Source: Dyella jiangningensis
Lineage (GTDB): Bacteria > Pseudomonadota > Gammaproteobacteria > Xanthomonadales > Rhodanobacteraceae
Assembly: GCF_003264855.1 (NCBI RefSeq)
Contig: NZ_NFZS01000001.1
Span: forward strand, 1,240,001-1,304,000
DNA: 64,000 nt
Direction: 5' to 3'
Below the pieces are notes generated by a model. The model was not told where the DNA came from and ran no database searches. It saw only the letters and a list, made by a program, of their open reading frames with translations. This document shows, piece by piece, positions 19,652-58,707 of the stretch (positions are counted from its first letter, which is position 1; every line of letters starts with the position of its first letter). The translations under genes were made by a program, and so were the position numbers.

Positions 19652-19681
19652 GCGGCCCGCGTTCCTTCGAACGCGGGCCGC
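19652..19681 (+). other. Strong RNA hairpin in rplY-pth spacer
   Basis: A 12-bp perfect stem (19652-19663 with 19670-19681) encloses the loop CCTTCG. No T-run follows, so it is not a standard intrinsic terminator. It ends nine bases before the pth start and could mark an RNA-processing or stabilising site, or limit pth translation initiation. That role is inference. Confidence 0.6.
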
Positions 19682-44189: not shown

Positions 44190-44220
44190 AAAAAACCGGC
44201 CTTCGGGCCGGTTTTTTTTT
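44190..44220 (+). terminator. Rho-independent terminator of the str operon
   Basis: CCGGCC-TTCG-GGCCGG (44196-44211) is flanked by six As and nine Ts, giving a long stem with a TTCG loop and a U-tract. It separates str from the S10 leader. Confidence 0.95.
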
Positions 44221-55382: not shown

Positions 55383-55411
55383 TTTCCTGTTGGGTTATTT
55401 ACGGTTAGAAT
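55383..55411 (+). promoter_or_regulatory. Candidate promoter of the alpha operon (rpsM-rpsK-rpsD-rpoA)
   Basis: TTTCCT (55383-55388) and TAGAAT (55406-55411) are 17 bases apart in the 137-bp secY-rpsM gap, with a locally AT-rich spacer. The -35 is weak. Confidence 0.5.
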
Positions 55412-55453
55412 TGCGCGTTTACCGCGCACGAAACGCATCGGAGAAAGTACATC

Positions 55454-55810
55454 ATGGCGCGCATCGCGGGTGTCAATTTGCCGGTCCAGAAACATGTCTG
55501 GGTTGGCCTGCAGAGCATTTACGGGATCGGCCGCAGCCGGGCCAAGAAGGTCTGCGCGGACGCAGGCGTGGTTCCCACCACGCAGATCAAGTCCCTGAGT
55601 GAAGGTGAAGTGGAAAAGCTTCGCCACGAAATCGGCAAGTACGTCGTCGAAGGCGATCTTCGCCGTGAGGTCGGTATTGCCATCAAGCGTCTGATGGATC
55701 TGGGTTGCTACCGCGGCCTGCGTCATCGCCGTGGCCTGCCGGTGCGCGGCCAGCGCACGCGTACCAACGCACGCACCCGCAAGGGCCCGCGTCGCGCCAT
55801 CAAGAAGTAA
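55454..55810 (+). CDS. rpsM: 30S ribosomal protein S13
   Basis: S13 forms head-to-50S bridges and contacts the P-site tRNA. The 118-residue protein has [39 protein letters not shown] and the C-terminal [29 protein letters not shown] site precedes it. It opens the alpha-type operon. Confidence 0.98.
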
Positions 55811-56863: not shown

Positions 56864-57862
56864 ATGGCAGTTTCGTCAACTAGCGTGCTGCGGCCTCGCG
56901 GCCTCAGCGTCGAGCAGCTTGGACCCAACCGCGCGAAGGTGGTGGTCGAGCCGCTCGAGCGTGGTTTCGGCCACACCCTGGGCAACGCGCTGCGTCGCGT
57001 GCTGCTTTCCTCGATCCCTGGCTCTGCCATCGTCGAGGTGGAAATTGATGGCGTGCTGCACGAATACACCACCCTTGAGGGTTTGCAGGAGGACGTGATC
57101 GAAGTCCTGCTGAACCTCAAGGACGTGGCGATTCGCCAGCATACGGGTGACGAAGTCACCCTGACCCTGTCCAAGAAGGGCAAGGGCGTGGTCACGGCCG
57201 GCGACATCGTCGTCGACCACTCGGTGGAAATCATCAACCCCGAGCATGTGATCTGCCACCTGACCAAGGACATCGCGCTCAACATGCGCCTGAAGGTGCG
57301 TCGCGGTGTCGGCTACCAGCCGGCCAGCGCGCGCCAGCACCCGGACGACGAAGCTCGTCCGATCGGTCGCCTGCAGCTCGACGCGTCGTTCGCGCCGGTG
57401 CTGCGCGTGGCCTACGAGGTGGACGCTGCCCGTGTGGAACAGCGCACCAACCTCGACAAGCTGGTGCTGGACATCGAGACCAATGGCACCATCGGTGCGG
57501 AAGACGCGGTTCGCAAGGCCGCCGAGATCCTCAACGACCAGCTGTCGGTGTTCGGTGACTTCTCGCGCCGCGAGAGCGCCACGGACAAGGCGGAGAAGGG
57601 CGGTTTCGATCCGCTGCTGCTCCGTCCGATCGACGACCTGGAGCTCACCGTGCGTTCGGCCAACTGCCTGAAGGCCGAGAGCATCTACTACATCGGCGAC
57701 CTGGTGCAGAAGACGGAAGTCGAACTGCTCAAGACGCCGAACCTCGGCAAGAAGTCCCTGACCGAAATCAAGGACGTGCTGGGTGGTCGTGGTCTGGCCC
57801 TGGGCATGAAGCTCGAGAACTGGCCGCCGCCGGGCTTGTCGCACGGTATGCAGCTGGGCTGA
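56864..57862 (+). CDS. rpoA: DNA-directed RNA polymerase subunit alpha
   Basis: RpoA dimerises to start polymerase assembly and binds UP elements and activators. The 332-residue protein has the N-terminal dimer domain ([39 protein letters not shown]) and the C-terminal helix-hairpin domain ([40 protein letters not shown]). Length and motifs are normal. The gap to rplQ is 305 bp, much longer than usual. Confidence 0.99.
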
Positions 57863-57905
57863 TGTTCCAAGGCGGCCGTCCGCGGTCGCCGGTAGTATCG
57901 GCAAA

Positions 57906-57935
57906 CTGGCGAGCGCACTTCGGTGCGCTCGCCAG
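57906..57935 (+). other. 13-bp perfect hairpin with C(TTCG)G loop in rpoA-rplQ gap
   Basis: CTGGCGAGCGCAC (57906-57918) and GTGCGCTCGCCAG (57923-57935) flank TTCG, closed by a C-G pair, the exceptionally stable cUUCGg form in RNA. No T-run follows. It dominates the 305-bp gap 57863-58167, which has no gene. The same gap also holds a small palindrome GACTAA-C-TTAGTC at 57976-57988. Confidence 0.75.
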
Positions 57936-58113
57936 CTTCCAAAAGCGGCTCACAAAAGTCGCGTGATGTTCGGGTGACTAACTTAGTCGCTTGGTATTGG
58001 CGGTCTGACGAGTGCTCATCCCTCGGATTTTGCAGGCGCCCCAACGGCAACCTTGCCGTCTTGCTCAACAAGAGCCCGTAACACGAAGGGCTTCATCAGC
58101 GGGTAACCGCGGG

Positions 58114-58138
58114 AAGTCGGACCTAACCGCCGACTTTT
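58114..58138 (+). other. Small hairpin with short T-run just before rplQ
   Basis: AAGTCGG (58114-58120) pairs with CCGACTT (58130-58136), ending in TTTT (58135-58138), 30 bases before the rplQ start. It could be a weak attenuator or an r-protein target. Confidence 0.4.
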
Positions 58139-58167
58139 CATAACAACAGACATAGAGAGTAATAGCC

Positions 58168-58548
58168 ATGCGCCACCAGAAATCCGGTCGCAAGCTCAAC
58201 CGCACGAGCAGCCACCGCGAAGCCATGTTCAAGAACATGGCTGCGTCGCTGATCAAGCACGAGCTGATCCGTACCACCCTTCCCAAGGCGAAGGAACTTC
58301 GTCGCGTCGCCGAGCCGCTCATCACGCTCGCCAAGACCGATGGCGTCGCCAATCGTCGTCTCGCTTTCGCACGTCTGCGCGACAAGGAAGCCGTGGGCAA
58401 GCTGTTCATCGAGCTGGGCCCCCGCTACCGCGAGCGTCCCGGCGGCTACCTGCGTATCCTCAAGGCTGGCTTCCGCGCTGGTGACAACGCCCCGATGGCG
58501 TACGTTGAACTGGTCGATCGTCCGCGTACTGAGGCGGCTGCCGAGTAA
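58168..58548 (+). CDS. rplQ: 50S ribosomal protein L17
   Basis: L17 lies at the tunnel exit side of the 50S. The 126-residue protein has [40 protein letters not shown] and [26 protein letters not shown] site precedes it. It ends the ribosomal super-cluster and is followed by a strong terminator. Confidence 0.98.
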
Positions 58549-58570
58549 TCGGTGCCATCTTGCGTTTCGC

Positions 58571-58602
58571 AAACCCTGGCAGGGCGACCTGCCGGGGTTT
58601 TT
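58571..58602 (+). terminator. Rho-independent terminator after rplQ
   Basis: CCCTGGCAGG (58574-58583) pairs with CCTGCCGGGG (58588-58597, one wobble) around GCGA, with three As before and TTTTT after. It closes the alpha operon. Confidence 0.92.
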
Positions 58603-58690
58603 GCGTTATGAGCGTCAGATGCCTTGCTTGCGCGCACGGTGGTGCAGCCTTTGTGTTTGTGGGGACGGCAAGAACTCGCGCATGGCCCCT

Positions 58691-58707
58691 CCGCGTGCGC
58701 TCCTACG
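58691..58707. repeat. Solitary REP half-site (degenerate)
   Basis: CGCGTGCGCTCCTACG resembles one arm of the REP at 2163-2186 (core GTGCGCTCCTAC exact), but no matching arm is close. It lies in the 283-bp rplQ-dsbB gap, where no other feature is clear beyond the terminator. Confidence 0.5.

Follow-up and report, generated by a model that had tools for sequence, protein, structure and literature searches.

Predicted RNA leaders located in front of rplQ, the gene encoding ribosomal protein L17, were described by Eckert and Weinberg in 2020 for Actinobacteria and (Alpha)proteobacteria (PMC7247131). As presented there, the L17 leader is a covarying RNA structure that directly precedes rplQ and is thought to control L17 alone, and the sections of that paper concerned with it do not mention Xanthomonas-type bacteria. 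The same sections describe the L17DE motif, an RNA element that also adjoins rplQ but that is located downstream of L17 genes and is restricted to Firmicutes (PMC7247131). In Escherichia coli, ribosomal protein uS4 represses L17 but not the alpha subunit of RNA polymerase (RpoA), and Meek and Hayward proposed in 1984 that a second S4 site is located before rplQ, a proposal for which, according to a 2024 review, strong evidence has not been provided (PMC10931766). Another relevant type of element is formed by the REP/BIME repeats, GTAG-tagged and others, which are short intergenic dispersed palindromes that have been proposed to act as mRNA stabilisers; Rhodanobacter, Dyella and Frateuria are not mentioned in the text on these repeats (PMC3733652). 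In the open-licence literature we found no described rpoA-rplQ leader in Xanthomonadales. Here, we analyzed a stretch of 64,000 nt of Dyella jiangningensis DNA (the window), and show that its rpoA-rplQ gap is composite: it contains a repeat-like hairpin array on the rpoA side and a conserved, putatively cis-acting RNA leader on the rplQ side.

Results

The genes of the alpha operon are arranged in the window in the order rpsM, rpsK, rpsD, rpoA and then rplQ, of which rpsD is supported by Pfam and the first two are, judging from their sequences, what we take to be rpsM and rpsK. The remaining spacers of the operon, from rpsM to rpoA, are 12, 11 and 16 nt long. Judged by rpoA, the named relatives closest to this genome are Rhodanobacter and Dyella. 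A preliminary description of this region had reported a gap of 305 nt between rpoA and rplQ, and this length is exact: rpoA stops at position 57862, rplQ starts at position 58168, and both proteins were confirmed by Pfam. It had also called the gap unusual, which is correct with respect to most other families of the Xanthomonadales but not within the window's own family, in which a long gap is usual. Gap lengths were measured in 180 loci having both genes, with some species counted twice (loci L002-L081 and L083-L111 are from two collections in which the same species may appear). The gap ranges from 24 to 346 nt, mostly >190 nt, in the window's family (61 genomes, window included), from 184 to 204 nt in sister family f2 (5 genomes), from 131 to 139 nt in family f3 (3 genomes), and from 10 to 81 nt in nine further sampled families of Xanthomonadales (30 genomes). 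Nine loci of gammaproteobacteria outside Xanthomonadales have gaps of 25-43 nt, and 11 loci belonging to other parts of the phylum, presumed to be alphaproteobacterial, have gaps of 49-263 nt. Thus, the window's family is characterized by a long gap, as are a few others.

The whole 305-nt gap folds with a z-score of -4.9. A scan of its interior found neither terminator-like nor promoter-like (sigma-70) sites, no second copy of the gap sequence was found in the window's own genome, and no Rfam 15 family scored above its gathering threshold in positions 57400-58700 of the window or in ten related loci. The features of the region are listed in Table 1.

Table 1. Features of the rpoA-rplQ region, in coordinates of the window
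Feature	Position	Strand	Basis
rpoA, RNA polymerase alpha subunit	56864..57862	+	Pfam PF01000, PF01193, PF03118
H1, first hairpin behind rpoA, unit 1	57871..57890	+	Sequence; H1-type hairpin in relatives
H2, 13-bp stem with cUUCGg loop	57906..57935	+	Perfect stem; covariation in 17 genus members
H3, degenerate copy of palindrome AAGCGGCCATCCATGGCCGCAC of relatives	57945..57962	+	Dispersed palindrome
H4, inferred second H1-type hairpin, unit 2; holds the palindrome at 57976-57988	57974..57990	+	H1-type matches in relatives, spaced by about 102 nt
H6, inferred second H3-type hairpin, unit 2	58044..58059	+	Relatives
UUGCUC, predicted partner of the Shine-Dalgarno region	58061..58066	+	Predicted pairing
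P0, hairpin GAGCCC..GGGCUU	58072..58093	+	Found in 50/67 relatives
P1, GCGG-GUAA-CCGC, GNRA-type loop	58099..58110	+	Nearly invariant
P2, 10-bp stem adjoining P1	58111..58139 (arms 58111-58120/58130-58139)	+	7/10 pairs with compensatory changes
CAUAACAACAGAC	58139..58151	+	Contains CAUAAC, whose C closes P2; predicted single-stranded beyond that C
AGAGAGU, putative weak Shine-Dalgarno of rplQ	58154..58160	+	Assigned by position
rplQ, ribosomal protein L17	58168..58548	+	Pfam PF01196

The most conserved part of the gap is the stretch from about 58061 to 58167, which abuts rplQ. For its analysis we aligned the gaps containing CATAAC[AG]A, which are 76 of the 180; leaving out L082 (the window again), the family f3 loci L116, L132 and L142, and five duplicates resulted in 67 distinct relatives. 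Their consensus consists of P1, GCGG(GUAA)CCGC; P2, GGGAAGYCGG..CCGRCUUUUC; CAUAAC; and an AGAGAG-type Shine-Dalgarno. The CAUAAC sequence is invariant in 67/67 rows, which were themselves drawn from gaps containing CATAAC[AG]A. In P2, 95.2% of the alignment cells are paired and seven of the ten pairs are changed on both sides, and the structure as a whole has 36 double-changed cells as compared to 9.5 in shuffles, none of 500 of which reached this number. Stem P1 hardly varies, and covariation is therefore silent for or against it; its loop is GTAA in 42 relatives, GCAA in 11, GAAA in two and another sequence in 12. Hairpin P0 was found with 23 different stems, and the 50 relatives having it compare with 8.4 expected from shuffles. 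The P0 alignment A3, which held 55/67 relatives, was not used for these counts, since P0 does not have the same register in all genera. The fold of the 136-nt leader in the window has a z-score of -2.05, and 6/200 shuffles folded equally well. The preliminary description had noted a second stem with a short T-run in this part of the gap: the stem does adjoin rplQ, but the T-run corresponds to the 3' arm of the 10-bp P2, and so it does not constitute a terminator tail near rplQ.

A pairing is predicted in the window between the Shine-Dalgarno and the UUGCUC sequence upstream of P0, which would enclose P0, P1 and P2 in a junction. This pairing was analyzed in the 52 of the 67 relatives with detectable P0. 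On the one hand, the complementarity between the upstream strand and the Shine-Dalgarno is supported, with -8.8 kcal/mol as compared to -5.5 kcal/mol when shuffled (0/200). On the other hand, the covariation is weak: when partners were exchanged among species, 682/2000 permutations were as good (241/5000 for 32 representatives), and exchange hardly weakens the pairing because the Shine-Dalgarno itself hardly varies. The ensemble favours the pairing in 25/67 relatives. An alternative helix between the 3' arm of P2 and the Shine-Dalgarno was rejected; 91.3% of its cells are paired, but shuffles were equal to it in pairing (345/500) and in covariation (436/500).

The distribution of the rplQ-proximal element was determined with a covariance model, R1. 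In 200 Xanthomonadales genomes R1 gave 30 strong matches (E at most 5.3e-21), one per genome and all within the window's family, and each of the 30 is located at the start of rplQ (20 and 10 by two coordinate checks). The element is thus restricted to rplQ and to one family. Weak matches in Xanthomonadales, with E values of 0.005-0.1, were not counted, and four same-family genomes in the 200-genome listing (G027, G032, G034 and G264) are without a strong match. Taking all 61 same-family genomes, the element is present in 51 and, being absent in the other ten, is dispensable. Among these ten, seven have gaps of 24-35 nt and the remaining three have gaps of 117, 136 and 169 nt. Among 274 genomes of the class, an E value of 0.001 was reached only by G000 and by one match in G427. 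The latter (E 6.8e-6), which is outside the family, has no rpoA or rplQ within the surrounding 2.4 kb and was taken as a chance match. R1 did not match three rpoA-rplQ loci taken as alphaproteobacterial (L190, L192 and L199).

The sister family, which includes Xanthomonas, Stenotrophomonas and Lysobacter, has a leader in the same place between rpoA and rplQ, and this leader also consists of covarying hairpins, but these are four other hairpins with RGGA-type loops. It was found in loci L034-L061 with gaps of 151-307 nt, and in L150, L151 and L155-L157. Several of its loops are of the RGGA type and AGGA is present in its Shine-Dalgarno, a layout that we take to resemble the arrangement of CsrA/RsmA sites. 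Compensatory changes are present in 13/22 pairs in an alignment of 23 of the 26 chosen sequences, and two of the hairpins are nearly invariant; the omitted sequences L051, L055 and L061 were later matched by R2, the model of the sister leader. R1 did not match the sister leader, nor did R2 match the window. Weak R2 matches in L197 (presumed alphaproteobacterial, E 0.085) and L203 (gammaproteobacterial, E 0.15) were not significant. Like the leader of the window's family, that of the family f3 loci L116, L132 and L142 has CAUAACAA downstream of a hairpin, and like the sister leader it has hairpins with AGGA loops; it is possible that the f3 leader is a link between both leader types.

On the rpoA side, between 57863 and 58060, the hairpins of relatives form zero, one or two repeat-like units. 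A unit in relatives is made up of H1 (GCGATC..GATCGC), H2 (a GC-rich stem) and H3 (AAGCGGCCATCCATGGCCGCAC), and where two units are recognisable they are spaced by about 102-104 nt. No direct repeat was found within the window's own gap, and its two-unit array is inferred from the relatives. Judging from these comparisons, H2 is a member of a variable repeat-like array with 0-2 units among relatives. The array is absent in some relatives that keep P1 and P2, e.g., L122 and L131, and the genus alignment of the gap contains many insertions and deletions of 1-2 nt. In L020, L027, L119 and L143, P1-P2 is kept but an inverted repeat of a different kind (GGGATTCGG type) takes the place of the repeat units; L143 also appears to contain the leader core twice, the additional copy being diverged.

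The 13-bp perfect stem with a TTCG loop that had originally drawn attention to this gap is present at 57906-57935, as is the 13-base palindrome GACTAACTTAGTC at 57976-57988. The stem lies at a distance of 43 nt from the rpoA stop, and the view that it is not a simple terminator is supported, there being no T-tract behind it. With regard to chance occurrence, a perfect stem of >10 bp was obtained in 0/2000 dinucleotide shuffles of the gap. Stems of at least 11 bp occur about 0.1 times per 64 kb in 20 shuffles of the window, as compared to five observed; H2 is therefore beyond chance, yet such stems are not rare here. The window contains a second 13-bp stem, without a T-run, at 19652-19681, and, at 44190-44217, a 12-bp TTCG stem with A/T-rich ends that is intrinsic-terminator-like. 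The preliminary description had pointed to conservation in relatives as informative: compensatory changes preserve the stem in 17/20 genus members (all except L094, L099 and L100), but its loop is variable, CTTCGG being present in 7/17. In the 17 members, 97.3% of the cells of H2 are paired, 7/13 pairs have compensatory changes, and there are 16 double-changed cells as compared to 2.6 in shuffles (0/500).

The H3 palindrome is dispersed. When up to two mismatches are allowed, copies are present in 50/78 genomes of the family, with a maximum of 40 per genome; a reversed control pattern had no matches in any genome except one, which had one match. Genome G000 contains six copies, none of them within the rpoA-rplQ gap, and the gap copies in the window are too degenerate to match the pattern. 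The copies that were inspected are located beside or inside genes. Their Pfam-supported neighbours are leuB, rlmN, sucB, thrS, rplF and pnp, and the names that we use for the remaining neighbours are assumed ones. In different genera the palindrome is found beside core translation or RNA-decay genes: behind rplF in L229 and L231, before pnp in L230, and before thrS in L228 and L236. Two copies in the window's genome are in frame within ORFs, one at the end of an ORF before leuB (L224) and the other in an amidohydrolase ORF (L225), and add a peptide around AAIHGRT; in this respect they resemble Rickettsia palindromic elements. The rpoA-side hairpins of the window are similar to a short, intergenic, dispersed palindrome, which is a possible point of likeness to REP/BIME repeats (PMC3733652), but the window copies are degenerate.

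Discussion

The features found at the rplQ side of the gap, i.e., a conserved and covarying RNA structure and a position just upstream of a ribosomal protein gene, are those that characterize ribosomal-protein leaders. Based on this, we favour the reading, with a probability of roughly 0.58, that the rplQ side of the gap is a lineage-specific translational ribosomal-protein leader by which L17 is tuned independently of RpoA. The preliminary description had suggested that the gap sets the dosage of L17 relative to RpoA. For the gap taken as a whole we consider this the best reading; the conservation, however, sits in the rplQ-proximal element and not in the UUCG hairpin to which attention had been drawn. 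We infer that translation is the controlled step, and we propose in the same way the direction in which it is controlled, the ligand, and what the Shine-Dalgarno pairing does. According to this proposal, an excess of bL17, or else of uS4 of the same operon, would lead to binding of the protein to P1-P2 and to the neighbouring single-stranded stretch. Ribosomes would thereby be kept from the weak rplQ start, possibly with a contribution of the pairing between the Shine-Dalgarno and the strand located upstream of P0, and the level of L17 could be set without changing that of RpoA. A search for rRNA mimicry against the organism's own 16S and 23S gave at best 5.2 bits (E about 3-4), and motif matches were no better than shuffles. 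At the level of the published description, the likeness to the L17 leader of Eckert and Weinberg lies in a covarying structure directly before rplQ and in the presumed control of L17 alone (PMC7247131). No Rfam family matched the alphaproteobacterial rpoA-rplQ loci, and the L17DE motif had no match in the window.

It is also conceivable that the gap is a module for mRNA processing and stability, in which H1-H6 would stop 3' exonucleases and define a region of cleavage, such that the rpoA and rplQ mRNAs decay separately and the rplQ-proximal element merely shapes the new 5' end. H2 is very stable, shows compensatory changes within the genus, and lies close behind the rpoA stop with no T-tract, and a stabilising role has been proposed for REPs (PMC3733652). 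It is possible that the H2 stem protects the 3' end of rpoA. However, the array varies from zero to two units and is missing in relatives that bear P1-P2, such as L122 and L131, and the conservation of P1-P2-CAUAAC far exceeds what a mere 5' end would need. We therefore consider it unlikely that such a module accounts for the gap.

The element could instead be a uS4 operator and would then represent a clear form of the additional S4 site that has been suggested to precede rplQ in E. coli. Both systems would have in common that L17 is controlled apart from RpoA within the operon. The gene for uS4, rpsD, belongs to the same operon, S4 represses L17 and not alpha in E. coli (PMC10931766), and the P1 loop is GUAA in 42/67 relatives; in the S4 leader of Firmicutes, the part that resembles rRNA is a conserved GUAA (PMC7247131). 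Nevertheless, the second position of the loop varies, GCAA and GAAA being found in 11 and two of the 67 relatives, as in a plain GNRA loop, and the element has no match to the organism's own 16S. It also lacks the pseudoknot of the Alpha_RBS family at rplQ and has no Rfam match; in particular, RF00140, the alpha-operon S4 site, did not match the gap at E <= 5. At the start of rpsM, where the canonical site would be located, RF00140 reached 12 bits of the 38 needed (E = 5; window 55408-55486), which suggests that S4 control here may differ from that in E. coli. Altogether, this identity of the element appears doubtful.

Quite unlikely, in our view, is a scenario in which a domesticated repeat has turned into a translational switch. 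According to this, the mobile-palindrome array and P0-P1-P2 would together form the L17 operator, and sister families would have evolved other RNA operators in the same place. A pyrimidine tail, CACTCTT.., is present behind the palindrome in relatives and also behind some dispersed copies, and in this scenario the tail would supply the strand that pairs with the rplQ Shine-Dalgarno.

The long and structured intergenic region, with its z-score of -4.9, might also encode a small RNA or provide a separate start for rplQ. This is very improbable, given that no promoter-like or terminator-like site is present inside the gap, that no Rfam small RNA scored above threshold, and that the conserved part abuts rplQ, in a register ending at the start codon in 30/30 strong matches. 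Finally, short ORFs are present on both strands, but the many 1-2 nt insertions and deletions in the genus alignment and the lack of a Pfam match for the two minus-strand ORFs tested make it highly implausible that the gap encodes a small protein.

How L17 can be controlled apart from RpoA within one transcript is an old question. The rplQ leader of the window's family is a new candidate ribosomal-protein leader, to which we assign its function by inference: it is compact and covarying, limited to rplQ, absent in some close relatives, and has a different counterpart in the sister family. If the proposed function is true, the question of L17 and RpoA would become directly testable, and the leaders of these families would be a further example of a site at which ribosomal-protein leaders have originated separately.
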